Assembly (NCBI GenBank): GCA_963971285.1 | Contig: OZ020245.1 | Span: forward strand, 25,434,983-25,498,982 | Origin: Astropecten irregularis | Lineage: Eukaryota; Echinodermata; Asteroidea; Paxillosida; Astropectinidae | DNA length: 64,000 nucleotides | Direction: 5' to 3' | Part shown: piece after piece, positions 11,290-41,700 of the stretch | Position numbering within the stretch: position 1 is the stretch's first letter | Layout: the number at the start of each line of letters is the position of its first letter | The notes under the pieces: generated by a model | What the model was told of the DNA's origin: nothing | What the model saw: only the letters and a program-made list of their open reading frames with translations | The model's database searches: none | Program-made: the position numbers and the translations under genes

Positions 11290-12800
11290 GTAAGGGTTCA
11301 ATTTGTTCATTTGTACATCTTGCATTGCACCTCATGTGCATCACGTGACGGTAAAGTTTGTTTGATTGTACCTCAAGTACATGAGGTATTTCTAAATACA
11401 TCTTGCATTGCACCTCATGTGCATCACGTGACGGTTCAGTTTGTTTGATTGTACCTCAAGTACATGAGGTATTTCTAAATACATCTTGCATTGCACCTCA
11501 TGTGCATCACGTGACGGTAAAGTTTGTTTGATTGTACCTCAAGTACATGAGGTATTTCTAAATACATCTTGCATTGCACCTCATGTGCATCACGTGACGG
11601 TAAAGTTTGTTTGATTGTACCTCAAGTACATGAGGTATTTCTAAATACATCTTGCATTGCACCTCATGTGCATCACGTGACGGTAAAGTTGGTTTGATTG
11701 TACCTCAAGTACATGAGGTATTTCTAAATACATCTTGCATTGCACCTCATGTGCATCACGTGACGGTAAAGTTTGTTTGATTGTACCTCAAGTACATGAG
11801 GTATTTCTAAATACATCTTGCATTGCACCTCATGTGCATCACGTGACGGTAAAGTTGGTTTGATTGTACCTCAAGTACATGAGGTATTTCTAAATACATC
11901 TTGCATTGCACCTCATGTGCATCACGTGACGGTAAAGTTTGTTTGATTGTACCTCAAGTACATGAGGTATTTCTAAATACATCTTGCATTGCACCTCATG
12001 TGCATCACGTGACGGTTCAGTTTGTTTGATTGTACCTCAAGTACATGAGGTATTTCTAAATACATCTTGCATTGCACCTCATGTGCATCACGTGACGGTT
12101 CAGTTTGTTTGATTGTACCTCAAGTACATGAGGTATTTCTAAATACATCTTGCATTGCACCTCATGTGCATCACGTGACGGTAAAGTTTGTTTGTTTGTA
12201 CCTCAAGTACATGAGGTATTTCTAAATACATCTTGCATTGCACCTCATGTGCATCACGTGACGGTAAAGTTGGTTTGATTGTACCTCAAGTACATGAGGT
12301 ATTTCTAAATACATCTTGCATTGCACCTCATGTGCATCACGTGACGGTAAAGTTTGTTTGATTGTACCTCAAGTACATGAGGTATTTCTAAATACATCTT
12401 GCATTGCACCTCATGTGCATCACGTGACGGTTCAGTTTGTTTGATTGTACCTCAAGTACATGAGGTATTTCTAAATACATCTTGCATTGCACCTCATGTG
12501 CATCACGTGACGGTTCAGTTTGTTTGATTGTACCTCAAGTACATGAGGTATTTCTAAATACATCTTGCATTGCACCTCATGTGCATCACGTGACGGTTCA
12601 GTTTGTTTGATTGTACCTCAAGTACATGAGGTATTTCTAAATACATCTTGCATTGCACCTCATGTGCATCACGTGACGGTAAAGTTTGTTTGATTGTACC
12701 TCAAGTACATGAGGTATTTTTAAATACATCTTGCATTGCACCTCATGTGCATCACGTGACGGTAAAGTTTGTTTGATTGTACCTCAAGCACATGAGGTGT
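11290..12800. repeat. 83-bp tandem array, about 18 units
   Basis: The marker TCACGTGACGG recurs every 83 bp from about 11341 to 12752. Each unit has the near-palindrome ACCTCAAGTACATGAGGT, the motif GCACCTCATGTGCA and a canonical E-box CACGTG. Units differ after CACGTGACGG as TAAAGTTTG, TAAAGTTGG or TTCAGTTTG types. Units 7-11 and 12-16 share the order of the first four types, which suggests a five-unit higher-order repeat of 415 bp. Diverged units continue to about 13040. Confidence 0.92.
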
Positions 12801-17639: not shown

Positions 17640-17798
17640 GCAATATTTACTCAAAGAATTCCTTTCAAAGCTGCAGATGGTGCTGACTCCATGGCTTTTC
17701 TCTCCCAGCTAATCATGAACTTGCTGATAAATCATCTAGATTTGATGAAGGACCACAAACTCCGTCACGATTCTGCGAAGCTGCAGTTTGTCTCCAAT
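17640..17798 (-). pseudogene. Decayed copy of exon E of the duplicated membrane-protein gene
   Basis: Aligns with exon E (40089-40277), best in its 3' half and donor area (GGAATTCTTTGAGTAAAT against GGAATTCTGTGTAAAT). The frame is not kept. Its order next to D' and F' is the same as D-E-F in the intact block. Confidence 0.65.
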
Positions 17799-20700
17799 TC
17801 AGCGTCTTGATTGACGAACTTGATTCAGTCGAACTTCTGCATTGTGCTGAAGCACATACTGCCTAAGAGTGACTGTTCAAATGACATAAACAAGAGACAA
17901 GAAATAATTGGCTTTTTCGCGGAAGCGAAAAGCCTTTGTTTTTGTTCTGTTTTTTTTTTTTTTTGGCTTTTTCGCGCAAGCGAAAAGCCTTTATTTCTGT
18001 TCTGTTTTTTTTTTTTTTTCTGCCTCTTCTTCCTCTTCCTCTTCTTGTCGCTTGAGTTACCATAGACTTTTTCTCGGTGGCACTTTGGCTACTATTAAAC
18101 TGCCGATTTTAACCAAACTTGGTCTGAAGGAAGTCTATATAGGGTAGTTGTCTCCCGAAACTTTTCGACATCATGACATCATGACTTGATTTTATATGAA
18201 TTTTTAAATATTTCTCACAGCCCGTTAACTTTGTACACAGATTACGTGACAATATGGTCGTGTACAAAACATATGATGCTCGAATGACTCTACTCTCCCC
18301 ATACGTGTACACTGCATTGTACGTACTCATTCACTGCACTGTGTGTATGGCATTCATAATAATGTCCGCGGATTACGTGACTCGATCAAAACTTCGTTTA
18401 TAATCTTTCCATAGACATTTTCATGTAAGACTTTTTATATATCGTTAAATACCAGCACCAAAATATCGAAATGCTATCGATGTAGGTTGCCGTATTTTAC
18501 GTCATTTTATGGGTCGCGTTAATATTAGCTATACATACGTGTAAAACTTAATACTTGGGAAGAGTTGTATGGAAAAGTGCAATGGTCCATAATTTTTTTT
18601 TTGTACGTGGCAATAATGATAATTTTTACACATGAACAAATTAAATTATGTCACGCCATTTCCCCTTGAATTCAGTGTCATCAGAGTGATTTCATGTTCT
18701 TGATATAATTTTGTATAAATATTCTATTCCGTAGGCCTATTTCAATGCAAAATACAGTCGGCTGGACGACCGTTGTTAGTACACGGTGGTCCGTTTGAAA
18801 CGGCTGTTTCATATGTGGCAACCACTATGCACCGGCGAACCACGGTCGGTGGATGGGCGGCGTGCCGATACCGCTTTGCCGCTGCTGAACCGCCGGCGGG
18901 CGGGGACGTGATGTCTGACTCAAAACTATATTTTCCCAAATAGACAATGCACGTACGTCTTTTTTTATATCATTTTCAAACAATTTTAATAACATATAGA
19001 AGGAACGGCCGATCGCCTCAAAAATGTGTATGTTTAGGAAATAGAGGTTGGCGATTAATAATGAAGTCATGACAACTTAATCAATTAATCTTTTATAAAT
19101 TGTTCAATCTTTCCCACGCTACCCGATTGACATGAAAAAAATGATCATAGTAACATACGATGTGATGCTCGATTGACTCAATTTCCCAAAACATGTGTAA
19201 AACATTGTTTACAGTATGTAAAACTTACATGTTCATTGTCGAATCCGTATGTCTGTTGACTTTTCAGAATTATTCACAAAATGTTTGGGAGTTGACGTAA
19301 TGTTTGTGAGTTGACGTAATGTTTGTGAGTTGACGTAATGTTTGCGAGTTGACGCAATGTTTGTGAGTTGACGTAATGTTTGCGAGTTGATGCAATGTTT
19401 GCGAGTTGACGTAATGTTTGCGAGTTGACGTAATGTTTGCGAGTTGACGTAATGTTTGCGAGTTGACGCAATGTTTGTGAGTTGACGTAATGTTTTCGAC
19501 AAAAGTATTTTGAGGGCATGATCGATGAAACAATTTTCGAGGGACCAAAACGATTTCCACATGAATACACAAAACATAATTTCGAGAATAACACAAAAAG
19601 ATTTTGATGGCAGATAATGATGTTGACGTAATGTTTGTGAGTTGACGCAATGTTTGCGAGTTGACGCAGTGTTTGCGAGTTGACGTAATGTTTGCGAGTT
19701 GACGCAATGTTTGCGAGTTGATGAAATGTTTCAAGTTGACGTAATGTTTGCGAGTTGACGTAATGTTTGCGAGTTGACGCAATGTTTGCGAGTTGACGTA
19801 ATGTTTGCGAGTTGACGTAATGTTTGCGAGTTGATGCAATGTTTGTGAGTTGACGTAATGTTTTCGACAAAAGTATTTTGAGGGCATGATCGATGAAACA
19901 ATTTTCGAGGGACCAAAACGATTTCCACATGAATACACAAAACATAATTTCGAGAATAACACAAACAGATTTTGATGGCAGATAATGATGTTCATGTATG
20001 ATGTACAAGAAAAGCCAACTTGCAGGCCGCGAGGTCTCGCATCAAAAATGCTACACGTACGGGGTGCGTGGACCGCACTGGTTATCACGGGCCCATGCCT
20101 CGGGCTGAATGCGTCGCAAGCCCCCACATGCTGTGTCTCCAGAGGATGTAGGGCACGTACCCGCATTTACTGGTCTTTTACAAAATTCCGAATTTGGCAT
20201 GTAAACGTTACTTTATCGCGTTGGAAATTCTTAATTTTAAAAAGGAAATACTCAGGTCGAACTGCTAGCTTTGGCTAGCTTTGGTAAAAAGAAGAACTAG
20301 CGATTAAACAAAAAGTTATATACTCAATTTTGTATAGTAAAAAAAGTGAAACTAACGCATGATCGCGTGGGGTTGCTGAGTCAAAAATTTGACTCAGAAA
20401 ACCCACGTCACGGTTTTCCGTGTTTATCATGAAAACGGCTAAATTATGCCGTTTATTTGTGTAAATATGTTCTATTCTACTTTTGAAAGACCTTTCCAGT
20501 CATGATGAAGGCATGTATTGGCGCCAAAGAAGCGCCCACTACTAACGAGACCGGCGTAAACCCTTTAGCTTATAAATATTTATTTATAATAATTTTCGTA
20601 TGCGGAAAAGCCTTATGTGCTGTTTTCAACAGACATAAACTCTAGTTGGCTTTTCCGATTTTAATCGGAAAAGGTATTGTTTTTGTTCTGATTTTTTGGC

Positions 20701-23700
20701 TTTTCCGATTTTAATCGGAAAAGGTATTGTTTTTGTTCTGATTTTTTTTTTTTTTCTTCTTCTTGTCGTTTGAGTTACCATAGACTTTTTCTACGTGGCA
20801 CTTTGGCTACTTTTAAATTGCCGATTTTCATCATACTTGGTCTGGAGGAAGTCCATATAGAGTAGTTGTCTCCCGAAACTTTTCATTGTCATGACGTCAT
20901 CAGGTGTCACGTGACAGTGTCTTAAAGGGGCAAACTTCAGACATCAATTATGAACGAACCCTAAGTCTGATTGAGTTGAAACTTGGTATGTATCTAAGTC
21001 GGGAAGTGTTATATCGAAAATTTGCAATGACGTCATGATGACGTCATTCACAGATTTTTTATGATTTATTGAAATTTTGGGTCATTAAAGTTCTTTTAAC
21101 GATATCTAGTAAACGAAACAAGATATCTTTGAATTTCTTTTTGATAATTCTTCAGCATACACCATAGATGAACACTGCATAGACAAAAATTATGTGACGT
21201 CATCATGACGTCATAAAAAATGCGATTTTTATAACACATAGTAGGAACGGCCGATCGCCTCGAAAATTGGTAGGTGTGGGATTTGGAGGTTGGGGATCGT
21301 AATTATGAAGTTACGTCAAGACAGCGTGATCATTTGATTTTTTATGATTTTTTAAAATCTTTTTCACGCTAGCCCATTGACTTGTACAGAGCTAGCTCTG
21401 TACGTTGCATGTGCAACAATTTACTTAGACCGCTTTCAATGCATGGCGCCCTCTTTAGACGCTAGCTCATTGACTTGTACAGAGCTAGCTCTGTACGTTG
21501 CATGTGCAACAATTTACTTAGACCGCTTTCAATGCATGGCGCCCTCTTTGGATTAAAACAAGAAACTGCGGTGGTGTCAGTACGTTATTTAAAAAAATCA
21601 ACAAAAACGCTTTGAGATATTAAGTTGATTCTTTCACCAAACGTGATTATTATGCAGGGTGTTTCTGAGAGACACATTGCTTGACATCTATGACCTCTAC
21701 TTCCGGTCAAACAGGAAGAAGCTCCTCATATCAAAGTGGTAAATCTCTTTTATGATTTTAATTCAATAATCAAAATCTTCAAAAATCAACACAAAATCAA
21801 CGGTTTGAGATATTAAGTTGATTCTTTCACCAAAAGTGATTGTTAGGCAGGGTCTTTCTTTGTGACTCACTGCTTGACCTCTGTGACCTCTACTTCCGGT
21901 CAAACAGGGAGTAGCTCCTCATTTAAAAGTGGTAAGAGCTAGGATCATGATTCTTTCACTAAATATCAATGTTAGGCAATGTCTTTCTTTGTGACACATT
22001 GCTTGACCTCTGTGACCTCTACTTCCGGTCAAACAGGAAGTAGCTCCTCATTTAAAAGTGGTAAGAGCTATGATCATGATTCTTTCACCAATAGACAATG
22101 TTAGGCAAGGTCTTTCATTTGTGACACAATGCTTGACCTCTGTGACCTCTACTTCCGGTCAAACAGGAAGTAGCTCCTCATTTAAAAGTGGTAAGAGCTA
22201 TGATCTTGATTCTTTCACCAAAAGTAAATGTAAGTCAAGGTCTTTCATTGTGACACAATATTTGACCTCTGTGACCTCTACTTCGGGTCAAACAGTTATT
22301 AACGGGAAGTAGCTCCTCATTTGAAAGTGGTAAAACCTATGATCATGATTCTTCCATAAACCCTGCAACTAAATGGGTTAAACTTAAATGTTCTATATTG
22401 AAATATGATACTTTTTATAAAGACCATATGTCTTCATAACAAAAAAATAAGATGTGTATTAATTTGTGAAATATTTTATGTATCATATATGCGGAAAAGC
22501 CATGTGTTCTGTTTTCAACAGACACAACCTCTAGTATTTTTTTTGAGTTTGTTCTGTGGCCCATAGACTTTGTACACAGATTTTTCTGCGCGGCACTTTG
22601 GTTACTTTTAAACAGCCGATCTTAACCAAACTTGGCCTGAATGAAGTCCGTATAGGGTAGTTGTGCCCCGAAACTTTTCATCATCATGACGTCAAAACTT
22701 GATTTTATATGATTTTTTAAAAATATTGTATAGCCCGTTCACTTTGTACACAGATTACGTGAACGTGGTCGTTGTTCAAAACATAAAGCTCGATCAATTT
22801 CCCATACACTATGTACAGTGTACATGTAGGCCTATGTACGCAATTCACTGTGATAACATACAATGCACATGTCCGATTCCGTGACACAAAACGTCGTTTA
22901 CAACTTGCCATAGTTTGCACGTAATTCCTTTTATATATCATTAAATACCAGCACCAAATCTTAATCGAAATGCTATTGATGTAGGTTGCTCTGTACGCGA
23001 AAATATTGGTCATTAAAAAGAACATACGATGTCAACAACATAAATACAAGGCGCGTTCAGATGTTTGATAGCCTGGATTATATATGCCGCTTTTTCATTT
23101 ACTTCCTTATCATAGTTGCCAGCAAAGCAGCGTAAATGCTGATTTTGACCCGTGTTTTGACCAGACAACCACGCACGCGCAGCAATCTACTTATACCGTT
23201 TTCAGTACGTAAGGTTGCACCCAAGTAAATAAACTCCCGCGGACAACAGTGATAAATCCCCAAACTTCAAAAATCGTTGAAAAATATACAGAACTCTCAC
23301 AGCTGTTCAAGTTGCACAGAAAAATGATGATGAACATGTAACCTTTCATTTTCTTTTCATTTTATGGTAGGGTGACGGTTGAATTTTTCAGTTATACTCA
23401 TTCTCAGCTGACCACCCCTAAAACAAGGTACGGATCACTCCAGTCAAAGAAGCCATTTAAAAAAAAACATCCCTCTGCAAAGCGGCTGAAATAGACCCGC
23501 TTTCTCACCCAATTGCATCAAAAATGGTCACAAATGGAAGCCCAGACACCAGGCAGGAGGTCCAGTGCCGTATTTCTTCAATCCTTCATTTTCATAGCTC
23601 TCACAACTCTCTTATTTCAAATATATTGAGTGCTTAACTTTTATTCATGAGCTCGGCGGACCCATTTAATTGCCACTACATGTATTTACTTGGCTGCACC

Positions 23701-26700
23701 CGTAATGCAGGATTCAGTTTTCCGAGCGCACGGTTTTGAATAACGCCCTCTTTTGATTAAAACGAGAAATCATTTCCCGAAGACGATATCATTTATTTGC
23801 TGAATTAAACAACATCAGCGATGTGTATTTAATTTGAGAAATATTTTATATCATATGCGGAAAAGCCATGTGTTCTGTTTTCAACAGACACAACCTCTAG
23901 TTTTTTTTTTCTTCTTCTTGTCGTTTGAGTTACCATAGACTTTTTCTACGTGGCACTTTGGCTACTTTTAAATTGCCGATTTTCATCATACTTGGTCTGG
24001 AGGAAGTCCATATAGAGTAGTTGTCTCCCGAAACTTTTCATTGTCATGACGTCATCAGGTGTCACGTGACAGTGTCTTAAAGGGGCAAACTTCAGACATC
24101 AATTATGAACGAACCCTAAGTCTGATTGAGTTGAAACTTGGTATGTATCTAAGTCGGGAAGTGTTATATCGAAAATTTGCAATGACGTCATGATGACGTC
24201 ATTCACAGATTTTTTATGATTTATTGAAATTTTGGGTCATTAAAGTTCTTTTAACGATATCTAGTAAACGAAACAAGATATCTTTGAATTTCTTTTTGAT
24301 AATTCTTCAGCATACACCATAGATGAACACTGCATAGACAAAAATTATGTGACGTCATCATGACGTCATAAAAAATGCGATTTTTATAACACATAGTAGG
24401 AACGGCCGATCGCCTCGAAAATTGGTAGGTGTGGGATTTGGAGGTTGGGGATCGTAATTATGAAGTTACGTCAAGACAGCGTGATCATTTGATTTTTTAT
24501 GATTTTTTAAAATCTTTTTCACGCTAGCCCATTGACTTGTACAGAGCTAGCTCTGTACGTTGCATGTGCAACAATTTACTTAGACCGCTTTCAATGCATG
24601 GCGCCCTCTTTAGACGCTAGCTCATTGACTTGTACAGAGCTAGCTCTGTACGTTGCATGTGCAACAATTTACTTAGACCGCTTTCAATGCATGGCGCCCT
24701 CTTTGGATTAAAACAAGAAACTGCGGTGGTGTCAGTACGTTATTTAAAAAAATCAACAAAAACGCTTTGAGATATTAAGTTGATTCTTTCACCAAACGTG
24801 ATTATTATGCAGGGTGTTTCTGAGAGACACATTGCTTGACATCTATGACCTCTACTTCCGGTCAAACAGGAAGAAGCTCCTCATATCAAAGTGGTAAATC
24901 TCTTTTATGATTTTAATTCAATAATCAAAATCTTCAAAAATCAACACAAAATCAACGGTTTGAGATATTAAGTTGATTCTTTCACCAAAAGTGATTGTTA
25001 GGCAGGGTCTTTCTTTGTGACTCACTGCTTGACCTCTGTGACCTCTACTTCCGGTCAAACAGGGAGTAGCTCCTCATTTAAAAGTGGTAAGAGCTAGGAT
25101 CATGATTCTTTCACTAAATATCAATGTTAGGCAATGTCTTTCTTTGTGACACATTGCTTGACCTCTGTGACCTCTACTTCCGGTCAAACAGGAAGTAGCT
25201 CCTCATTTAAAAGTGGTAAGAGCTATGATCATGATTCTTTCACCAATAGACAATGTTAGGCAAGGTCTTTCATTTGTGACACAATGCTTGACCTCTGTGA
25301 CCTCTACTTCCGGTCAAACAGGAAGTAGCTCCTCATTTAAAAGTGGTAAGAGCTATGATCTTGATTCTTTCACCAAAAGTAAATGTAAGTCAAGGTCTTT
25401 CATTGTGACACAATATTTGACCTCTGTGACCTCTACTTCGGGTCAAACAGTTATTAACGGGAAGTAGCTCCTCATTTGAAAGTGGTAAAACCTATGATCA
25501 TGATTCTTCCATAAACCCTGCAACTAAATGGGTTAAACTTAAATGTTCTATATTGAAATATGATACTTTTTATAAAGACCATATGTCTTCATAAAAAAAA
25601 ATAAGATGTGTATTAATTTGTGAAATATTTTATGTATCATATATGCGGAAAAGCCATGTGTTCTGTTTTCAACAGACACAACCTCTAGTTTTTTTTTTCT
25701 TCTTCTTGTCGTTTGAGTTACCATAGACTTTTTCTACGTGGCACTTTGGCTACTTTTAAATTGCCGATTTTCATCATACTTGGTCTGGAGGAAGTCCATA
25801 TAGAGTAGTTGTCTCCCGAAACTTTTCATTGTCATGACGTCATCAGGTGTCACGTGACAGTGTCTTAAAGGGGCAAACTTCAGACATCAATTATGAACGA
25901 ACCCTAAGTCTGATTGAGTTGAAACTTGGTATGTATCTAAGTCGGGAAGTGTTATATCGAAAATTTGCAATGACGTCATGATGACGTCATTCACAGATTT
26001 TTTATGATTTATTGAAATTTTGGGTCATTAAAGTTCTTTTAACGATATCTAGTAAACGAAACAAGATATCTTTGAATTTCTTTTTGATAATTCTTCAGCA
26101 TACACCATAGATGAACACTGCATAGACAAAAATTCTGTGACGTCATCATGACGTCATAAAAAATGCGATTTTTATAACACATAGTAGGAACGGCCGATCG
26201 CCTCGAAAATTGGTAGGTGTGGGATTTGGAGGTTGGGGATCGTAATTATGAAGTTACGTCAAGACAGCGTGATCATTTGATTTTTTATGATTTTTTAAAA
26301 TCTTTTTCACGCTAGCCCATTGACTTGTACAGAGCTAGCTCTGTACGTTGCATGTGCAACAATTTACTTAGACCGCTTTCAATGCATGGCGCCCTCTTTA
26401 GACGCTAGCTCATTGACTTGTACAGAGCTAGCTCTGTACGTTGCATGTGCAACAATTTACTTAGACCGCTTTCAATGCATGGCGCCCTCTTTGGATTAAA
26501 ACAAGAAACTGCGGTGGTGTCAGTACGTTATTTAAAAAAATCAACAAAAACGCTTTGAGATATTAAGTTGATTCATTCACCAAACGTGATTATTATGCAG
26601 GGTGTTTCTGAGAGACACATTGCTTGACATCTATGACCTCTACTTCCGGTCAAACAGGAAGAAGCTCCTCATATCAAAGTGGTAAATCTCTTTTATGATT

Positions 26701-29700
26701 TTAATTCAATAATCAAAATCTTCAAAAATCAACACAAAATCAACGGTTTGAGATATTAAGTTGATTCTTTCACCAAAAGTGATTGTTAGGCAGGGTCTTT
26801 CTTTGTGACTCACTGCTTGACCTCTGTGACCTCTACTTCCGGTCAAACAGGGAGTAGCTCCTCATTTAAAAGTGGTAAGAGCTAGGATCATGATTCTTTC
26901 ACTAAATATCAATGTTAGGCAATGTCTTTCTTTGTGACACATTGCTTGACCTCTGTGACCTCTACTTCCGGTCAAACAGGAAGTAGCTCCTCATTTAAAA
27001 GTGGTAAGAGCTATGATCATGATTCTTTCACCAATAGACAATGTTAGGCAAGGTCTTTCATTTGTGACACAATGCTTGACCTCTGTGACCTCTACTTCCG
27101 GTCAAACAGGAAGTAGCTCCTCATTTAAAAGTGGTAAGAGCTATGATCTTGATTCTTTCACCAAAAGTCAATGTAAGTCAAGGTCTTTCATTGTGACACA
27201 ATATTTGACCTCTGTGACCTCTACTTCGGGTCAAACAGTTATTAACGGGAAGTAGCTCCTCATTTGAAAGTGGTAAAACCTATGATCATGATTCTTCCAT
27301 AAACCCTGCAACTAAATGGGTTAAACTTAAATGTTCTATATTGAAATATGATACTTTTTATAAAGACCATATGTCTTCATAAAAAAAAATAAGATGTGTA
27401 TTAATTTGTGAAATATTTTATGTATCATATATGCGGAAAAGCCATGTGTTCTGTTTTCAACAGACACAACCTCTAGTTGGCTTTTCCGATTTCAATCGGA
27501 AAAGGTATTGCGTTTGTTCTGATTTTTTTTTTTTTTTCTTCTTCTTCTTCTTCTTTTTCTTCTCCCCAAGTCTATGAGAATTTGTACACGATTGTTCTAC
27601 GCTCCACTTTGGTCACTTTTAAACAGTCAATCTTAACCAAACTTGGTATAAATAAAGTCCATATAGCATAGATGTGCCCGCGTAAAATTCATCATGATGA
27701 CGTCATCAGGTGTCATGTGACCAGCGATTTGAATTTAATAATCAAAATCTTTAAAAATCAACAAAAAATCTACCGATTGAGATATTAAGTTCATTCTTTC
27801 ACCAAATATCAATTTTAGGGAGGGTCTTTCTTTTTTACACAATATTTGACCTCTGTGACCTCTACTTCCGGTCAAACAGGAAGTAGCTCCTCATTTAAAA
27901 GTGGTAAGAGCTAGGATCATGATTCTTTCACCAAAGGTCAATGTTAGGCATGGTCTTTCTTTGTGACACATTACTTGACCTCTGTGACCTCTACTTCCGG
28001 TCAAACAGGAAGTAGCTCCTAATTTAAAAGTGGTAAGAGCTATGGTCATGATCCTTTCACCAATAGACAATGTTAGGCAAGGTCTTTCATTTGTGACACA
28101 TAACTTGACCTCTGTGACCTCTACTTCCGGTCAAACCGGAAGTAGCTCCTCATTTAAAAGTGGTAAGAGCTAGGATCATAATTCTTTCACCAAATATCAA
28201 TGCTAGGCAAGGTCTTTCTTTGTGACACATTACTTGACCTCAGTGACCCCTACTTCCGGTCAAACAGGAAGTAGCTCCTCATTTAAAAGTGGTTAGAGCT
28301 AGGATCATGATTCTTTCACCAAACATCAAAGTAAGGGAGGGTCTTTCTTTGAAACACATTGCTTGACCTCTGTGACCTCTACTTCCGGTCAAACTGGAAG
28401 TAGCTTCTCATTTAAAAGTGGTTCGAGCTAGGATCATGATTCTTTCACAAAAAGTGAATGTTAGGCATGGTCTTTCTTTGTGACACATTGTTTGACCTCT
28501 GTGACCTTTACATCCGGTCAAACCGGAAGTTAGTTCTCATTTAAAAGTGGTTAGAGCTAAAATCGTGATTCTTTCACTAAATATCAATGTTAGGCAAGAT
28601 CTTTCTTTGTGACACATAGCTTGACCTCTGTGACCTTTACTTCCGGTCAAACAGGAATTAGCTTGTCATTTAAAAGTGGTAAGAGCTTTGATCATGATTC
28701 TTTTACCAAATGTAAATGTAAGGGAAGGTCTTTCTTATGACACAATTCGATCTGATTGACAAGCAATTGATATCATATGCGAAAAAGCCTTATGTGCTGT
28801 TTCAAACAGCCATAAACTCTAGTATTTTTTTTTGAGTTTGTTCTGTGGCCCATAGACTTTGTACACAGATTTTTCTGCGCGGCACTTTGGTTACTTTAAA
28901 ACAGCCGATCTTAACCAAACTTGGTCTGAATGAAGTCCATATAGGGTAGTTGTGCCCCGAAACTTTTCACCATCATGACGTCAAAACTTGATTTTATATG
29001 ATTTTTTAAAAATATTTTATAGCCCGTTCACTTTGTACAGAGATTACGTGAACGTGGTCGTTGTACAAAACATAAAGCTCGATCAATTTCCCATACACTA
29101 TGTACAGTGTACATGTAGGCCTACGTACGCAATTCACTGTGTATAACATACAATGCACATGTCCGATTGCGTGACACAAAACGTCGTTTACAACTTGCCG
29201 TAGTTTGCACGTAATTCCTTTCATATATCATTAAATACCAGCACCAAATCTGAATCGAAATGCTCTCGATGTAGGTTGCTCTGTACGTGAAAATATTGGT
29301 CATTAAATAAAACATACGATTTAAACAACATAAATACAAGGCGCGTTCAGATGTTTGATTGCCTGGATTATATATGCCGTTTTTTCATTTACTTCCTTAT
29401 CATAGTTTCCAGCAAAGCAGCGTAAATGCTGATTTTGAGCCGTGTTTTGACCAGACAACCGCGCACGCGCAGCAATCTACTTATACCGTTTTCAGTACGT
29501 AAGGTTGCACCCAAGTAAATTAAACTCCCGTAGACAACAGTGATAAATCCTCAAACTTCAAAAATCGTTAAAAAATATAGAGAACTCTCACAGCTGTTCA
29601 AGTTGCACAGAAAAATGATGATGAACTTGTAACCTTTCATTTTCTTTTCATTTTATGGCAGGGTGACCGTTGAATTTTTTAGTTATACTCATTCTCAGCT

Positions 29701-32700
29701 GACCACCCCTAAAACAAGAGTACGGATCACTCCAGTCAAAGAAGCCATTTTCCAAAAAAAAAAAAAACATCCCTCTGCAAAGCGGCTGAAATAGACCCAC
29801 TTTCTCACCCAATTGCATCAAAAATGGTCACAAATGGAAGCCCAGAGACCGGGCAGGAGGTCCAGTGCCATATTTCTTCAATCCTTCATTTTCATAGCTC
29901 TCACAACTCTCTTATTTCAAATATATTGAGTGCTTAACTTTTATTCATGACCTCGGCGGACCCATTTTGCCACTACATGTATTTACTTGGCTGCACCCGT
30001 AATGCAGGATTCACTTTTCCGAGCGCACGGTTTTGAATAACGCCCTCTTTTGATTAAAACGAGAAATCATTTCCCGAAGACGATATCATTATTTTATTTG
30101 CTGAATCAAACAACATCAGCGATGTGTATTTAATTTGAGAAATATTTTATATCATTATGCGGAAAAGCCATGTGTTCTGTTTTCAACAGACACAACCTCT
30201 AGTATTTTTTTTGAGTTTGTTCTGTGGCCCATAGACTTTGTACACAGATTTTTCTGCGCGGCACTTTGGTTACTTTAAAACAGCCGATCTTAACCAAACT
30301 TGGCCTGAATGAAGTCCGTATAGGGTAGTTGTGCCCCGAAACTTTTCATCATCATGACGTCAAAACTTGATTTTATATGATTTTTTTAAAATATTGTATA
30401 GCCCGTTCACTTTGTACACAGATTACGTGAACGTGGTCGTTGTACAAAACATAAAGCTCGATCAATTTCCCATACACTATGTACAGTGTACATGTAGGCC
30501 TACGTACGCAATTCACTGTGATAACATACAATGCACATGTCCGATTCCGTGACACAAAACTACGTCGTTTACAACTTGCCATAGTTTGCACGTAATTCCT
30601 TTTATATATCATTAAATACCAGCACCAAATCTTAATCGAAATGCTCTCGATGTAGGTTGCTCTGAGTACGTGAAAATATTGGTCATTAAATAAAACATAC
30701 GATTTAAACAACATAAATACAAGGCGCGTTCAGATGTTTGATTGCCTGGATTATATATGCCGTTTTTTCATTTACTTCCTTATCATAGTTGCCAGCAAAG
30801 CAGCGTAAATGCTGATTTTGAGCTGTGTTTTGACCAGACAACCACGCACGCGCAGCAATCTACTTATACCGTTTTCAATACGTAAGGTTGCACCCAAGTA
30901 AATAAACTCCCGCGGACAACAGTGATAAATCCCCAAACTTCAAAAATCGTTAAAAAGTATACAGAACTCTCACAACCTTTCATTTTCTTTTCATTTTATG
31001 GTAGGGTGACGGTTGAATTTTTGAGTTATACTCATTCTCAGCTGACCACCCCTAAAAGAAGGTACGGATCACTCCAGTCAAAGAAGCCATTAAAAAAAAA
31101 AACATCCCTCTGTAAAGCGGCTGAAATAGACCCACTTTCTCACCCAATTGCATCAAAAATGGTCACAAATGGAAGCCCAGAGTCCAGGCAGGAGGTCCAG
31201 TGCCATATTTCTTCAATCCTTCATTTTCATAGCTCTCACAACTGTCTCATTTCAAATATATTGAGTGCTTAACTTTTATTCATGAGCTCGGCGGACCCAT
31301 TTGGCCACTACATGTATTTACTTGGCTGCACCCGTATTTTCCGAGCGCACGGTTTTGAATAACGCCCTCTTTTGATTAAAACGAGAAATCATTTCCCGAA
31401 GACGATATCATTTATTTGCTGAATCAAACAACATCAGCGATGTGTATTTAATTTCAGAAATATTCTATATCATATGCGGAAAAGCCTTATGCGCTGTTTT
31501 CAACAGCCATAATCTCTAGTATTTTTTTTGAGTTTGTTCTGTGGCCCATATAGACTTTGTACACAGATTTTTCTGCGCGGCACTTTGGTTACTTTAAAAC
31601 AGCCGATCTTAACCAAACTTGGCCTGAATGAAGTCCGTATAGGGTAGTTGTGCCCCGAAACTTTTCATCATCATGACGTCAAAACTTGATTTTATATGAT
31701 TTGTTAAAAATATTTTATAGCCCGTTCACTTTGTACACAGATTACGTGAACATGGTCGTTGTACTAAACATAAAGCTCGATCAATTCCCCATACACTATG
31801 TACAGTGTACATGTAGGCCTACGTACGCAATTCACTGTTTGTAACATACAATGCACATGTCCGATTGCGTGACACAAAACGTCGTTTACAACTTGCCATA
31901 GTTTGCACGTAATTCCTTTTATATATCATTAAATACCAGCACCAAATCTTAATCGAAATGCTATCGATTTAGGTTGCTCTGTACGTGAAAATATTGGTCA
32001 TTAAATAAAACATACGATTTAAACAACATAAATACAAGGCGCGTTCAAATGATTGATTGCCTGGATTATATATGCCGCTTTTTTATTAACTTCCTTATCA
32101 TAGTTGCCAGCAGAGCAGCGTAAATGCTGATTTTGAGCCGTGTTTTGACCAGACAACCACGCACGCGCAGCAATCTACTTATACCGTTTTCAGTACGTAA
32201 GGTTGCACCCAAGTAAATAAACTCCCGTAGACAACAGTGATAAATCCCCAAACTTCAAAAATCGTTAAAAAATATACAGAACTCTCACAGCTGTTCAAGT
32301 TGCACAGAAAAATGATGATGAACATGTAACCTTTCATTTTCTGTTCATTTTATGGTAGGGTGACCGTTGAATTTTTGAGTTATACTCATTCTCAGCTGAC
32401 CACCCCTAAAACAAGGTACGGATCACTCCAGTAAAAGAAGCCATAAACAAAAACATCCCTCTGCAAAGCGGCTGAAATAGACCCACTTTCTCACCCAATT
32501 GCATCAAAAATGGTCACAAATGGAAGCCCGGAGACCAGGCAGGAGGTCCAGTGCCATATTTCTTCAATCCTTCATTTTCATAGCTCTCACAACTCTCTTA
32601 TTTCAAATATATTGAGTGCTTAACTTTTATGAATGAGCTCGGCGGACCCATTTGGCCACTACATGTATTTACTTGGCTGCACCCGTATTTTCCGAGCGCA

Positions 32701-35700
32701 CGGTTTTGATTAACGCCCTCTTTTGATTAAAACGAGAAATCATTTCCCGAAGACGATATCATTTATTTGCTGAATCAAACCACATCAGCGATGTGTTTTT
32801 AATTGAGAAATATTCTATATCATATGCGGAAAAGCCATGTGTTCTGTTTTCAACAGACACAATCTCTAGTTGGCTTTTTCGATTTTAATCGGAAAAGGTA
32901 TTGCGTTTGTTCTGATTTTTTTTTTTTTTCTTCTTCTTCTTCTTCTTTTTCTTCTCCTCAAGTCTATGAGAATTTGTACACGATTGTTCTACGCTCCACT
33001 TTGGTCACTTTAAAACAGTCAATCTTAACCAAACTTGGTCTAAATAAAGTCCATATAGCATAGATGTGCCCGCGTAAATTACGTCATCATGACGTCATCA
33101 GGTGTCATGTGACCAGCGATTTGAATTTAATAATCAAAATCTTTAAAAATCAACAAAAAATCAACGGTTTGAGATATTAGGTTGATTCTTTCACCAAAAG
33201 TGATTGTTAGGCAAGGTATTTCTTTGTGACACATTACTTGACCTCTGTGACCTCTACTTCCGGTCAAACAGGAAGTAGCTCCTCATTTAAAAGTGGTAAG
33301 AGCTAGGATCATGATTCTTTCACCAAAAGTGAACGTTAGGCAAGGTCTTTCTTTGTGACACATTACTTGACCTCTGTGACCTCTACTTCCGGTCAAACAG
33401 GAAGTAGCTCCTCATTTAAAAGTGGTAAGAGCTACAATCATGATTCTTTCACTAAATATTAATGTTAGGCAAGATCTTTCTTTGTGACACATCGCTTGAC
33501 CTCTGTGACCTCTACTTCCGGTCAAACCGGAAGTTGCTCCTCATTTAAAAGTGGTAAGAGCTAGGATCATGATTCTTTCACCAAAAGTGAACGTTAGGCA
33601 AGGTCTTTCTTTGTGACACATTACTTGACCTCGATGACCTTTACTTCCGGTCAAACCGGAAGTTGCTCCTCATTTAAAAGTGGTAAGAGCTACAATCATG
33701 GATCTTTCACTAAATATTAATGTTAGGCAAGATCTTTCTTTGTGACACATCGCTTGACCTCTGTGACCTCTACTTCCGGTCAAACCGGAAGTTGCTCCTC
33801 ATTTAAAAGTGGTAAGAGCTAGGATCATGATTCTTTCACCAAAAGTGAACGTTAGGCAAGGTCTTTCTAATGACACAATTCTGATTGACAAGCTATTTAT
33901 ATCATATGCGGAAAAGCCTTATGTGCTGTTTCAAACAGCCATAAACTCTAGTATTTTTTTTGAGTTTGTTCTGTGGCCCATAGACTTTGTACACAGATTT
34001 TTCTGCGCGGCACTTTGGTTACTTTAAAACAGCCGATCTTAACCAAACTTGGTCTGAATGAAGTCCATATAGGGTAGTTGTGCCCCGAAACTTGTCACCA
34101 TCATGACGTCAAAACTTGATTTTATATGATTTTTTAAATATATTTTATAGCCCGTTCACTTTGTACACAGATTACGTGAACGTGGTCGTTGTACAAAACA
34201 TAAAGCTCGATCAGTTTCTCATGCACTATGTACAGTGTACATGTAGGCCTACGTACGCAATTAACTGTGTATAACATACAATGCACATGTCCGATTCCGT
34301 GACACAAAACGTCGTTTACACTTGCCATAGTTTGCACGTACTTCCTTTTATATATCATTAAATACCAGCACCAAATCTTAATCGAAATTATAGTCGATGT
34401 AGGTTGCTCTGTACGTGAAAATATTGGTCATTAAATAAAACATACGATTTAAACAACATAAATACAAGGCGCGTTCAGATGTTTGATTGCCTGGATTATA
34501 TATGCCGTTTTTTCATTTACTTCCTTATCATAGTTGCCAGCAAAGCAGCGTAAATGCTGATTTTGAGCCGTGTTTTGACCAGACAACCACGCACGCGCAG
34601 CAATCTACTTATACCGTTTTCAATACGTAAGGTTGCACCCAAGTAAATAAACTCCCGCGGACAACAGTGATAAATCCCCAAACTTCAAAAATCGTTAAAA
34701 AATATACAGAACTCTCACAGCTGTTCAAAATGCACAGAAAAATGATGATGAACATGCAACCTTTCATTTTCTTTTCATTTTATGGTAGGGTGACGTTTGA
34801 ATTTTTGATTTATACTCATTCTCAGCTGACCACCCCTAAAACAAGGTACGGATCACTCCAGTCAAAGAAGCCATTTTCAAAAAAAACATCCCTCTGCAAA
34901 GCGGCTGAAATAGACCCACTTTCTCACCCAATTGCATCAAAAATGGTCACAAATGGAAGCCCAAAGTCCAGGCAGGAGGTCCAGTGCCATATTTCTTCAA
35001 CCCTTCATTTTCATAGCTCTCACAACTCTCTTATTTCAAATATATTGAGTGCTTAACTTTTATTCATGAGCTCGGCCGGCGGACCCATTTTGCCACTACA
35101 TGTATTTACTTGGCTGCACCCGTATTTTCCGAGCACACGGTTTTGAATAACGCCCTCTTTTGATTAAAACGAGAAATCATTTCCCGAAGACGATTATCAT
35201 TTATTTGCTGAATCAAACAACATCAGCGATGTGTATTTAATTTGAGAAATATTTTATATCATATGCGGAAAAGCCATGTGTTCTGTTTTCAACAGACACA
35301 ACCTCTAGTATTTTTTTTGAGTTTGTTCTGTGGCCCATAGAATTTGTACACAGATTTTTCTGCGCGGCACTTTGGTTACTTTAAAACAGCCGATCTTAAC
35401 CAAACTTGGTCTGAATGAAGTCCATATAGGGTAGTTGTGCCCCGAAACTTTTCACCATCATGACGTCAAAACTTGATTTTATATGATTTTTTAAAAATAT
35501 TTTATAGCCCGTTCACTTTGTACACAGATTACGTGAACGTGGTCGTTGTACAAAACATAAAGCTCGATCAATTTCTCATGCACTATGTACAGTGTACATG
35601 TAGGCCTACGTACGCAATTCACTGTGTATAACATACAATGCACATGTCCGATTCCGTGACACAAAACGTCGTTTACACTTGCCATAGTTTGCACGTAATT

Positions 35701-38700
35701 CCTTTTATATATCATTAAATACCAGCACCAAATCTTAATCGAAATTATAGTCGATGTAGGTTGCTCTGTACGTGAAAATATTGGTCATTAAATAAAACAT
35801 ACGATTTAAACAACATAAATACAAGGCGCGTCCAGATGTTTGATTGCCTGGATTATATATGCCGTTTTTTTATTTACTTCCTTATCATAGTTGCCAGCAA
35901 AGATGCGTAAATGCTGATTTGGACCCGTGTTTTGACCAGACAACCACGCACGCGCAGCAATCTACTTATACCGTTTTCAGTACGTAAGGTTGCACCCAAG
36001 TAAATAAACTCCCGTGGACAACAGTGATAAATCCCCAAACTTCAAAAATCGTTAAAAAATATACAGAACTCTCACAGCTTTTCAAGTTGCACAGAAAAAT
36101 GATGATGAACATGTAACCTTTCATTTTCTTTTCATTTTATGGTAGGGTGACGGTTGAATTTTTGAGTTATACTCATTCTCAGCTGACCACCCCTAAAACA
36201 AGGTACGGATCACTCCAGTCAAAGGAGCCATTAAAAAAAAACATCCCTCTGCAAAGCGGCTGAAATAGACCCACTTTCTCACCCAATTGCATCAAAAATG
36301 GTCACAAATGGAAGCCCAGAGACCGGGCAGGAGGTCCAGTGCCATATTTCTTCAATCCTTCATTTTCATAGCTCTCACAACTCTCTTATTTCAAATATAT
36401 TGAGTGCTTAACTTTTATTCATGAGCTCGGCGGACCCATTTGGCCACTACATGTATTTACTTGGCTGCACCCGTATTTTCCGAGCGCACGGTTTTGAATA
36501 ACGCCCTCTTTTGATTAAAACGAGAAATCATTTCCCGAAGACGATATCATTTATTTGCTGAATCAAACAACATCAGCGAAGTGTATTTAATTTGAGAAAT
36601 ATTCTATATGCGGAAAAGCCATGTGTTCTGTTTTCAACAGACACAACCTCTAGTTTCTTCTTACTCTTCTTCAGCCAAATTTCGTATAGACTTTGTACAG
36701 GGGCATTCTACACGCCACTTTGGTCACTTTTAAACAGTCGATCTTAACCAAACTTGGTATGAAGGAAGTCCATATAGGGTAGTTGTCTCCCGAAACTTTT
36801 CGTCATCATGACGTCATCAGGTGTCACGTGACAGTGTCTTAAAGGGGCAAACTTCAGACATCAATTATGAACGAACCCTAAGTTTGATTGAGTTGAAACT
36901 TGGTATGTATCTAAGTCGGGAAGTGTTATATCGAAACATTTCAATGACGTCATCATGACGTCATCAGGTGTCACGTGACAGTGTCTTAAAGGGGCAAACT
37001 TAATACATCAATTATGAACGAACCCTAAGTTTGATTGAGTTGAAACTTGGTATGTATCTAAGTCGGGAAGTGTTATATCGAAAAATTTCAATGACGTCAT
37101 CATGACGTCATTCTCTGATTTTTTATGATTTATTGAAATGTTGGGTTATTAAAGTTCTTTTAACGATATCAAGTAAACAAAACAAGATATCTTTGAATTT
37201 CTTTTTGATAATTATTAAGCATACACCATAGATGAAAACTACATAGACAAAAAATCGGTGACGTCATCATGACGTCATAAAAATTGCATTTTTTATAACA
37301 CACAGTAGGAACGGCCGATCGCCTAGAAAATTGGTAGGTTGGGGAAATGGAAGTTGCGGATCGTAATCATGAAGTTACGTCACGACGGCGTCATCACTTG
37401 AATTTTTATGATTTTTAAAATCTTTCTCACGCTAGCCCAATGACTTGTACAGAGCTCTGTACGTGAAAATATTGGTCATAAAATGAAACATACGATTTAA
37501 ACACCATTCATGCCAGGCGCGCGAAAGGTTGTTTGCCTACTTTATATATGCCGTGTTCTCCTTTTTTTTTCCTTATCATAGTTGCCTATAGCGTAAATGC
37601 TGTTTTTGACAAGACAACCACGCACTCGCAACAATCTACTTAGACCGTTTTCAGTAATGCATGAATCGGTAATCCGAGCAGACGGTTTTGAATGGCGCCC
37701 TCTTTTGATTAAACAAAGTACATAGTTGCTTGTTTTGATCAAAAGAGGGCGCCATTCAAAACCGTCTGCTCGGATGACTGTTATTCGTTAGGCCATGCCA
37801 GGGGTGCTTTGTTTTCAGACAGCAGTGTTTACCCGTTTGCATCTATATGGCACACAGTCGCACTTAGTTTTATAAAACCACTTTATGTGGCCAAGACACG
37901 TGACGTAAGATTAAAGGTGCACACTTCAAAACTCCAAAAGTGATTTGTTTAACTCAAGTTTTCTACATTTAGATACGGTCACTTTTAAACCATCTGTCTC
38001 AATCAAACAAAATAAGTGATGTGTTTTAATTGGAGAAATATTTTATATCATTATGCGGAAAAGCCATGTGTTCTGTTTTAAACAGACACAACCTCTAGTT
38101 TTAACTTTCGATTTTGTAAAATGTATTTATGGTTGAACGAATCTTTTTCTTATAATGTGCTTCATTCTCCGGACCTTGATGATATTGTTATCCTGGCAAA
38201 ATGATGAAGATGCTGCGGTGGTTCTGATCTTTGCTGCAGCTAACATTACTGACACTGACAGCGATGATCATAATTATGCCATGATCATGGGGATGTTGAT
38301 GAGGCTGAATATGATGAGTGAAAATGATACAAACATACCACGCTTGAAATGGTGCAAAGTCTGTCGCCGTGCATATTGTCGTGGCAGCTGATCTTGGTAT
38401 TTTTGTTGCATCAGCCGCTCAGCTTGAGTAATCCTATCCAGCCAAGATTGTCTTTCTGTTACGGCTTTGGCTTTCCTATAGACCAGTAGAGGTGTTCCTA
38501 TCATCAGGGGAGACTTTTCGTTTCCAATTACGTGTCTTGGTCGAGGAACTTGATTCAGTCGAACGTCTGCATTGTGCTGAAGTACATACTGTCTAAGAGA
38601 GACTGCTCAAATGAGATGAAAAAGAGATAGGGGGTCATTTTTACTTTTGATTTATTTTCTTTTATAGTTGAATGAATCTATTTTCAACAATATGCTTCAT

Positions 38701-41700
38701 TCATCATGTATTGAAATGTCTGTCCTTTAGAATAGAGAATTAATCATTTCTTGGCTGTTGCAAAAATTATAGGGTGCAGTTGTGACTGTTCAGGTTGTTG
38801 CTCAATACGTTAATGGTGATGATGAGGGTTATGGTGAAAGATCGTGGTCATGATCAATACCATCAACACTAATGTCACCATGAATATGACAAATCAGGAT
38901 GGAAACAAACCTTGCATCTGTTTCTCAACTTCAGCCATCCTTTCAAGCCAATAGTTTCTGAGTGACTCGGGTTTAGATCGGTGGTGGGGAGGCTTTTCTT
39001 CATTTTCGCGTTTCTTCTCTTTGCATACCCTGTCTGGTTGTTGAACCGTTGATTTCTCCTGAGTCGTAGAAATATCAACCTGCAATTGAGGTTGCACTGT
39101 CCTCCTAGATCCCAGAAGATCCGATATGTCTTGATCTCCAGTTTGACTCTTTTCAGCGCCATGGGACATTTGGAAGGATAGTCCCTGCAGACCCTCTACT
39201 TCTGGACTCGCTAGGCTCGGGCGTGACAGAAGCGGTGCGTTTATAGTTGCCCTGGACGCCGAAGAGAATTCTTGATTTTCACTTTCCCCATTGTGAGTGT
39301 GTTGTTTAAGAGGAGGATTGCAAACATGGTTTTGTTGTTTTGCCAAGACTTCTGCATCATTCATATCTCCAGTAATCCTCCTATCTTGAAAACTCGGAGC
39401 AACACAATCTGTGAATTCAGAGGTATTACAAACATCATGAAATAGGGACACGAATTAAACTTGCTATCCAGTGTCGGTGAAGAAACAAATCATGAAATCT
39501 TATTATAACCTTGTTTGTTCTTGTGGGTTCTTGGTGGAGTTTCATGCTCAACCTGGAAGACTGGTTGCCCGGTTATCTTGAAAAGTTCATTATCCAAAGG
39601 CTTGAGTCTTCCATCCTCAACATCAGGAGAGTCAAGTAGTTCAGCGAGATTTTCACTTTCCAACTGCAGTGCAATCTGGCGGCATCGTTCGGCATCCACA
39701 GCGGCTGCTATAGCTCTCTGGTCTCCTCGATGTGGGCCACCGGGCAAAGGAGGAAGCTCTATCCAGGGTCGAGGTGAAGAATATCGCTGGCGATTGATGT
39801 CAGCTGGAAGAGCAGATCGTCAGTATTATAGATTTAACTTAAGTCAGTGATATAATGCAGACGGACTTGTAATTGGACTTAATTGCACATCCAGAGTCCC
39901 GCATTGCGTCTTTAGCCGTCCATCGTACATGATTAGTGCATACTTCAGTTCAGAGATTGCAGAATCACCAAATGTACTACACGTACCTAAAGCTGCTTCT
40001 CCTTTTTTTTCAATAAAAATGTCCGTGGTTCCTTAACTTTAATACAACATCCATGGTGAGATGAAGACTCAGAAAAAGCAATATTTACACAGAATTCCTG
40101 ATAAAGCTGTGGATGACTTTGTCTTGGTGCTGCTTCTTTTCTCGCCGATCACTGATTTGCTGACTATTTCTTCAGAGGGATTGTTGACGATGAAAGCAGT
40201 TTCCAACAAAGATGCGTCGTCTGCAAATCGCACCGATCGCCTTCTGGTCCCGTCCCCTGCAAAGGGAAGTGCGCCCACTGTCCCGAAATAAATAGACAAT
40301 TAATATCCCATCGACTTATTCTTAACTAATGTATTTCGAAATATTTCAAAGAGGAATTGCTGCATACCTTTCCGTCGCTGTTGTGTAGGCTTCTTTTGAT
40401 CAGACTCTTGCTGAAGCTCATTTTGTTGCATGCGGCACTGAGCTTCTGCCATCCTCTGCAACCAAGGTTTGTCCTGAGACTCGGCTTTATCTTGATGGAG
40501 TGATGGTTCTTGGTGATGGCTTTCCTTTCCTCCTTGATGTAGCCTTCCTGGAAGTCGACTTATTGAGTTCGATTTCTCCTGCCTAGTGGGAATGGAGACC
40601 ACCGCTTGAAGTTCTACTCGCCTCCCATCTCGATCAACAGGCTGCTGTTTGGTTTTCTTAACAGCTTCTGGATTTGTTTCTCTTCTTGATTTAAGACCGG
40701 AAGGCCCACGATCTGCCAGGACGGGCTGATTGTCTCCATTGTCGGGTCTTGATTGACGAATTTCTTTAAGTCGACGTTCTGCATTGCGTTGGAGTACATA
40801 CCGTCTCAAAGAGACTGCTCGAAATAATTAAAAAGAAAGGGAAACAAATTGCTGTCATTGATTTGTTCTTTTGGATTCCTTTCCAATTATTTTCTACAAC
40901 AATTTATACACTGACATGTTTACTTGCAGAATACAGAATAAATCGATTCTCATCATTTTAATCACGTGGTGGTCATGGGGATATCAAATTATGATTGTTA
41001 CGTACTTTGCTGTCGTTTCTGGGGAGGCTTCTGACGAGCACATTGTCGTCGACGCTGATCTTGGCTTTTGTGATCTTTCTGACAACCAGCTTGAGCCATC
41101 CTGTCAAGCTGAGGTTTCCTCTGTGACTCGACTTTGGCTCGATTTTGTAGTTTTGAAGTTTTAGGTTGATGAGGTACCTCTTGTGGCCTAACTAATGGTT
41201 GGGGATCTGATTTCAACTGCTGAGCAGGAGACATATCAACCTGCACTTGAGCTTGTACTCTCCTGCTAGTATCTACAGGCTGCTCTTTGGATTCCTTTTC
41301 AGCCTCTTGATGCTGTCTGACAGCGACTGCTTGATTGTCAAGGTGATTGGGGATATCTTGAGAATCCTGAGGATGGTCTAGTTTCTGGCCAAGATCCAGT
41401 TTCTTCCGATCCCCAGTTTGAATCTTCTCATCATTGGACATGTGATGGATGCACATATCGTCCTGAACCTCTTTTGGTATGTCTGTTTGGTTCCAGTGTG
41501 ATAGACACGTTGCAGTTCGCATGGTGTTGGATGAAGGCTTTTCCAAAGAAAATCCTCCATTTTGATGTTCTTCAAACTGGTGGTGCATTTGTTGCTCAAG
41601 AGGAGCGCTGGGAAGATGATTTTGCTCCTTTTGCTGGACATCTGCCTCATTAATATCTCCATCAATCTTCCTCTCTTCACTTTCTATCCTTCTGTTGCTA

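Follow-up and report, generated by a model that had tools for sequence, protein, structure and literature searches.

Mixed head-to-tail chains of Helentron-like elements in Astropecten irregularis and a unit family seen only without a 5' end

Introduction

Non-autonomous Helentrons (HINEs) and their autonomous partners were described by Thomas, Vadnagara and Pritham (2014; PMC4067079). According to the available parts of that report, they carry palindromic subterminal inverted repeats 2 bp from the 5' end and a hairpin near the 3' end, insert into T-rich targets without duplicating them, contain tandem repeats in some units, and have a partner that encodes Rep, a PIF1 helicase and an endonuclease, the Rep being marked by the S in RG-S-PHxH. 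All these features recur in the system analysed here, an array of Helentron-like units in a 64,000-bp stretch (termed the window) of the sea star Astropecten irregularis (GCA_963971285.1, contig OZ020245.1; C8:25434983-25498982). Unlike the published HINEs, its units form long mixed chains, and one family was seen only without a 5' end.

Several related arrangements are known, each cited here as far as the text of the source was available. For stacked 5' termini of FoHeli elements, Chellapan et al. (2016) proposed self-insertion (PMC5148889). Similar short (<200 bp) 5' stacks occur in the sea star, as do reversed open reading frames (ORFs), which characterize some FoHeli subgroups (FoHeli4/5 relative to FoHeli3), a zebrafish Helentron and a Chlamydomonas Helitron2 (PMC5148889). 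However, FoHeli composites have several 5' termini and one 3' terminus, whereas here we find the complementary product, namely 5'-less bodies that each follow a 3' end. The tandem Helitron arrays of plants (Xiong, Dooner and Du, 2016, via the review PMC12628747) are likewise head-to-tail and derive from rolling-circle transposons, but many of them have multiple 5' ends and a single 3' end. The array described here has the opposite polarity, with many 3' ends, few 5' ends and several families mixed. Finally, the oyster Cg_HINE has central satellite-like repeats (PMC7492417), comparable to the 129-bp repeats of two of our unit types; those repeats lie within one element, whereas here whole elements are chained as well. 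Thus, HINEs, stacked 5' ends, tandem Helitrons and reversed ORFs are all already known. Published routes from a rolling-circle transposon to a tandem repeat include bypassed termination, circles and insertion preference. A HINE family without a 5' end, in contrast, was not reported in the available text of the literature on tandem Helitrons and Helentrons that we searched.

Results

Thirteen units are arranged head-to-tail between positions 17908 and 38098 of the window, all on the + strand and each terminated by CTCTAG, in line with the roughly thirteen same-orientation units listed in a first-pass annotation of this DNA. In all of them a CTGTT...AACAG hairpin ends 13 bp from the terminus and a subterminal repeat lies 33 bp from it; a 14th CTCTAG in the window, at 46337, lacks the hairpin. 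The annotation had also named a shared pre-hairpin motif and an opener of the complete units, and both stand with exceptions. The exact motif CGGAAAAGCC precedes the hairpin in 12 of the 13 units, the unit ending at 28822 having the variant CGAAAAAGCC. A complete 5' end is present in only four units (at 17963, 20696, 27477 and 32870), two of which, 17963 and 32870, read TTTTTCG instead of TTTTCCG. With up to two mismatches and on both strands, the opener TTGGCTTTTCCG matches the window 24 times where 5.3 matches are expected, a number reached by none of 100 shuffles. These shuffles, together with the reversed-pattern controls (0, 46 and 0) of motif searches across the genome (476 Mb, 168 contigs), led us to reject chance clustering.

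Self-comparison and unit-to-unit comparison both give the unit order 1-A-B-A-A-C-B-B-B-C-B-B-D, as previously annotated. The units are:

17908-20645, + strand: unit 1; 5' stub at 17908-17962, complete 5' end at 17963, CTCTAG terminus at 20645, internal 19-bp minisatellite
20646-22534, + strand: unit A1; 5' stub at 20646-20695, a copy of its own first 50 bp, complete 5' end at 20696, central 129-bp repeats
22535-23900, + strand: unit B; no 5' end, begins with TATTTTTTTTGAG immediately after CTCTAG
23901-25688, + strand: unit A2; no 5' end, begins within the oligo-T tract of A, 99.9% identical to A1
25689-27476, + strand: unit A3; no 5' end, 99.8% identical to A2
27477-28822, + strand: unit C; complete 5' end immediately after CTCTAG, central 129-bp repeats (7.4 copies)
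28823-30202, + strand: unit B; no 5' end
30203-31519, + strand: unit B', a variant of B; no 5' end, closely similar units on C15, C10 and C18
31520-32869, + strand: unit B; no 5' end
32870-33951, + strand: unit C; complete 5' end immediately after CTCTAG, central 129-bp repeats (5.3 copies)
33952-35308, + strand: unit B; no 5' end
35309-36653, + strand: unit B; no 5' end
36654-38098, + strand: unit D; no 5' end, begins in a pyrimidine tract, its CTCTAG forming the right border of the array

The nine units without a 5' end (six B, two A and D) each start directly after the CTCTAG of the preceding unit, and the first two units are preceded by an additional 5' stub of 50-55 bp. At each of the three perfect CTCTAG|TTGGC junctions in the array, two unlike units meet (1|A, A|C and B|C), and a simple monomer concatemer derived from a circle was rejected on this ground. 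Satellite DNA made of a single monomer was rejected because five unit types are interleaved, and a plant-type Helitron array because the window has 13 3' ends, four complete 5' ends and two stubs. Within the units, the 129-bp repeats of A and C occupy 21819-22353, 24974-25508, 26762-27296, 27793-28744 and 33183-33868, and the minisatellite of unit 1 (19280-19992) shows a 368-bp higher-order repeat.

The sequence of the units supports their classification as non-autonomous Helentrons, which the first-pass annotation had proposed. They show the palindromic subterminal inverted repeat of HINEs, with GGCTTTTCCG near the 5' end and its inverse, CGGAAAAGCC, near the 3' end. The 5' copy, found only in the four complete units, begins 2 bp in and folds on itself (z -5.2 and -3.3 for the two that were folded). 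The 3' copy has its near edge 33 bp and its far edge 43 bp from the terminus in all 13 units and in 4/4 Helentrons measured; for mite HINEs a distance of about 38-60 bp is given, the edge being unspecified, and the HINE 3' palindrome is placed about 8-35 bp from the terminus (PMC4067079, available text), a range into which the hairpin of all 13 units falls. Across 13 distinct 3' ends (13 of 14 sequences, L044:4533-4565 being left out because of wrong coordinates), 98.5% of the cells of the hairpin are paired, compared with at most 46% in slid controls; two of its ten pairs have changed on both sides and eight are invariant. Judged from this alignment, the hairpin is kept by paired changes.

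Thomas et al. assign subfamilies by at least 80% identity to the partner across the last 60 bp (PMC4067079, available text). Compared with the autonomous Helentron on C11 described below, the 13 units in window order have 46, 50, 50, 50, 50, 39, 58, 42, 48, 41, 50, 48 and 57 identical positions out of 60. Nine thus reach 48/60 (80%), the others being unit 1 (best 47/60), both C units (39 and 41) and B' (best 44). Over the last 45 bp, seven of the 13 are identical (45/45) to the C11 Helentrons. Canonical Helitrons (Helitron1; 5'-TC, 3'-CTRR, A/T target) were considered and rejected: the CTAG terminus resembles CTRR, but the units start with TT and sit in a T-rich site, and the partner Rep has the Helentron signature.

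Candidates for such partners are abundant in the same genome. The Helitron Rep domain PF14214 has 149 matches genome-wide (150 of 154 candidates scored), some of which are fragments of one gene, whereas 0/14 control genomes match. Of these matches, 94 sit in a stop-free frame of at least 3000 residues. We retrieved 200 kb around five places and read five large elements at both ends. All have the TTGGC 5' end and the hairpin-CTCTAG 3' end of the array units and measure 19.1-22.9 kb:

C11: two elements of 19.1 kb each, near-identical
C14: one element, 20.5 kb
C20: one element, 20.4 kb
C18: one element, 22.9 kb between ends

The ORFs of the C18 and C14 elements (2/2 scanned) each combine OTU, DUF6570, Rep (PF14214), PIF1 (PF05970) and Exo_endo_phos (PF03372) in one frame. 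All eight Rep ORFs that were read contain YFYR...VEFQQRGSPHTH. This is the Helentron-type form of Rep motif 2, with S separating G and P and with Y/F-x-R upstream, and it agrees with the Helentron signature given in the available text of PMC4067079. Moreover, in 5/5 elements with both ends read, the reading direction of Rep is antisense to the hairpin orientation, as reported for Helentron-Da-40 (PMC4067079, available text). The Rep/helicase Helentron sharing the ends of the array, for which the annotation had called, is therefore present; the outcomes that the annotation had named as refuting its reading did not occur, and the units were most likely moved by such autonomous elements of the same genome. 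Ahead of Rep, the Helentron ORF (L039:450-9983, L033:1143-9998) encodes the OTU protease domain and also matches PF04843, the herpesvirus tegument N-terminal family. Rep genes furthermore cluster on the same strand about 19-51 kb apart (C11:16209717-16385913, C20:6831088-6905268, C14:10534956-10650730 and C15:21488695-21604724); given these clusters, the large elements may be chained too.

The outer borders of the array are supported by a paralogous empty site within the window:

38517-38700, + strand: array-free host repeat in which sequence matching the left flank (from 17787) is joined to sequence matching the right flank (from 38099)

A copy of the left flank (17787-17897), 86% identical to it, lies at 38517-38627. 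When left and right flanks are joined and compared to the sequence from 38517 onward, they score 223, compared with 158 for the left flank alone and a maximum of 178 in 200 controls with a shuffled right flank, which indicates that the window itself holds this site. At this one site, whose flanks are about 86% alike, the array is inserted in T-rich ATTTT and no target duplication is seen. A further host copy at 40730 was rejected as a second empty site, since its joined flanks score 133, inside the shuffled controls (maximum 142).

Exon-like host segments are repeated on the minus strand around the array (17787-17897, 38517-38627 and 40730-40836), and minus-strand ORFs lie nearby at 38894-39451, 40300-40809 and 40998-41588, two of which were scanned and have no Pfam match. 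The location in a gene intron, as proposed by the annotation, is not established by these repeats: of eight flanking ORFs scanned against Pfam, seven gave no match and one a sub-threshold reverse-transcriptase match, and naming a host gene by Pfam was dropped. This match, a reverse-transcriptase-like fragment (PF00078, E 1.5e-4, under the curated cut-off), lies at the left edge of the window (409-1260, +), and an 83-bp tandem repeat (17.9 copies, 98% match) at 11314-12798, outside the array.

The array had been called striking for mixing several subfamilies, but among the loci sampled chains of mixed units are not exceptional. In the retrieved DNA, with L043 and L044 left out and the loci partly chosen by similarity, 52 of 55 3' ends abut another element, two enter unrecognised DNA and one lies at a sequence edge. 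The abutting neighbours comprise 20 B bodies, 17 pyrimidine-tract bodies (16 by script, and unit D by hand) and 15 complete 5' ends. Of the four 3' ends of L043, three are followed directly by a body and the final one by unrecognised DNA. The choice of loci by similarity was offset by the place lists of strict 3' and 5' ends. On C1, which supplied all of the first 100 listed 3' ends, 62 of these ends have another 3' end of the same strand next to them at no more than 3 kb; of the 40 close neighbouring pairs, 39 agree in strand. Of the 5' ends, 35 of the first 100 listed are stacked, forming 20 pairs 44-57 bp apart in a search of 40-70 bp; about 0.01 are expected, and the corresponding p-value treats the pairs as independent. 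Five more same-strand 5' pairs in this set, 97-212 bp apart, fall outside the stack count. Genome-wide we find 245 perfect CTCTAG|TTGGC junctions and none in the reversed control. The total counts of 5' and 3' ends (1251 versus 2404) were rejected as a ratio, because the strict 3' pattern misses ...AATCTCTAG variants.

The spacing of the stacks matches the position of an oligo-T tract, so that the elements seem to carry their own landing pad. A T run is found between +39 and +61 in 22/22 openers without a close follower, including the L006 opener at 1406, whose run is just five T long and after which a decayed opener follows. Nine stubs, defined as lying 40-70 bp before the next opener, are 45-59 bp long and end in or just at the oligo-T tract. 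Families other than B break at varying points of the pyrimidine tract, B at one point. If newcomers insert into the T tract, the elements should share one orientation, with a stub on the upstream side and a body lacking its 5' end after CTCTAG; landing of this kind would account for the stacks.

Alternatively, the stubs might be slippage duplications of the element's own 5' end. Over 42 bases, three of the nine equal the following opener and one differs by a single base, which slippage would fit; four others differ by 2-3 bases, and the L008 stub, with 21/42 mismatches, belongs to another subfamily, just as an A/C-type opener stands upstream of 1-type openers in L006. We therefore regard slippage as an unlikely origin of the stubs.

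Local duplication, to judge from sequence identity, multiplies blocks of units. The three A units of the window are 99.8-99.9% identical to each other. On C11 (16338853-16349726; L025-L026), a 5,437-bp block of four HINE units, one with an altered 3' end, is duplicated at 100% identity. This block is a satellite-like higher-order repeat built of HINEs and in that respect differs from the window array. Also on C11, two copies of a 20.6-kb block made of a Helentron and B are 99.7% identical; a longer Helentron-B-C block was rejected, since the aligned 20.6 kb cover Helentron and B only and the unit after B differs between the copies. Finally, a 335-bp segment of A recurs at 100% identity on C9 and C30, which points to recent movement of the family.

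These duplications would be the expected outcome if the array had grown in place by unequal crossing-over from one or two founders, its truncated 5' bases being copies of one local event. The annotation favoured such growth, or rolling-circle read-through, over separate insertions, because several units start at the same truncated base. For B this argument does not hold: B starts that follow CTCTAG are spread over at least 17 contigs, and the B unit at 30203 has its closest relatives on other chromosomes rather than beside it; what survives of the claim is the local duplication itself. The interleaving of several families also speaks against growth in place. The B' copies on other chromosomes contradict it as the only process at work, and we consider it improbable overall.

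The distribution of B was unexpected. Searched as an exact pattern, which a diverged opener could escape, no complete opener lies within 30-60 bp of a B body anywhere in the genome. There are 125 exact B starts, and the 100 listed occupy 17 contigs. Of these 100, 83 follow an exact CTCTAG (the hexamer alone was checked). Five starts without it were read, one in L042 and four in L045-L048, and all five follow a decayed 3' end. Thus, all 88 B starts checked follow CTCTAG or a decayed form of it, the rest being 12 of the 17 listed exceptions and 25 unlisted starts. In the window the 3' end upstream of B is of the ACACAAC type three times, of the CCATAAA type twice and of the CCATAAT type (that of B') once.

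B' (30203-31519) shares 99.7-99.8% identity with three units on C15, 99.3% over 1184 bp with one unit on C10 and 97.0% with one on C18, compared with about 93-94% for the units of its own array. In most cases the neighbours of the near-identical B units differ between C8, C10 and C15. Six B' copies give 15 pairwise comparisons of 300-bp flanks on each side. Upstream, nine of these score no higher than 200 unrelated pairs do (mean 0.74, maximum 0.84); the same holds for 13 of the 15 downstream, the other two scoring 0.98 and 0.89. The upstream flank of the window copy is unrelated to that of four of the five other copies.

These flanks bear on rolling-circle read-through, in which replication from the first 5' end would skip hairpins, stop at a later 3' end and transpose multi-unit composites as a block. 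The window has the four complete 5' ends and 13 3' ends that such a process would leave, and the available text of PMC4067079 attributes tandem Helitrons of bat and silkworm to a bypassed termination signal. However, a block shared across chromosomes should include the upstream unit that bears the 5' end, which the flank comparison does not show for four of five copies, and apart from B' no window unit has a C15 match above 97% among its top-five lists. Moreover, read-through alone leaves the starts of bodies in T or pyrimidine tracts unexplained. We hold it to be a possible but rather doubtful origin of the chains.

The strongest rival for B is ectopic recombination, or shuffling by unit-length extrachromosomal circles, through the near-identical 3' ends of about 45 bp, with no transposase acting on B. 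The 45/45 identity of seven window units to the C11 Helentrons is perhaps sufficient for homologous exchange. On the other hand, between the window copy and the C10 copy of B', which have different upstream 3' end types, the switch occurs no more than about 7 bp from CTAG|T, where Rep is expected to cut, and is not spread over 45 bp, a pattern read from few copies (low scores of the C15a copy across the last 40 bp reflect a one-base offset and were left out). Such shuffling is conceivable for B, if on balance doubtful.

A different possibility, which we put forward only tentatively, is that B is a one-ended rolling-circle element, deprived of its own 5' end in all copies, that moves from array to array with the 3' terminus of whichever Helentron lies upstream serving as its left end. 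The 5'-less distribution of B is observed; cleavage at the 3' end of the neighbour would be its simplest cause.

Discussion

We propose that the chain was built by insertion into T tracts and by local multiplication, and that B spreads as a 5'-less unit; as a whole, we give this explanation a probability of roughly two in three. A newcomer would land in the oligo-T tract about 39-61 bp inside a complete opener, the T tract setting the same-strand orientation. It would leave a 5' stub of 45-59 bp upstream and the 5'-less body of its host directly after its own CTCTAG. Repeated landings could produce head-to-tail chains of mixed subfamilies, blocks of which would then multiply locally by unequal exchange or segmental duplication. 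T-tract insertion is thus likely to both start and lengthen chains. B would spread bounded on both sides by CTAG|T 3' termini, which is simplest if Rep uses the 3' terminus of the upstream neighbour as its left cleavage site.

Several observations weigh against this proposal. The window has nine 5'-less bodies and only two stubs, so nested in-place insertion alone cannot have built the array. No case of the arrangement stub X, complete Y, body X was found, and none of the 26 further T runs of 6-10 bases in the 13 units was seen to be hit. The stubs that are identical or nearly identical to the following opener are also compatible with slippage, and the C11 block repeated at 100% identity could stem from a duplication made by the assembly. 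As for B', six of the 15 upstream flank comparisons do indicate relatedness (0.84-0.98), and the window copy agrees with the C15c and C18 copies at 38-39 of the 40 bp preceding B', so that recombination in the shared 3' end may apply to these two pairs. Newcomers inserting at the boundary could, in addition, have altered the left neighbours of B' later on.

The Astropecten irregularis genome combines many chains with Helentrons that have long uninterrupted ORFs, and the polarity of its chains is opposite to that reported from plants. A geometric cause suggests itself, in that the T-tract landing pad inside each element would set both the place and the orientation of the next insertion. Should B truly be mobile despite lacking a 5' end, a 3' end together with a neighbour would be the least that a Helentron requires as substrate. 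Every CTAG|T of a chain would then terminate one unit and serve as the origin of the next, and Helentron chains would be self-propagating strings whose members require only a 3' end.

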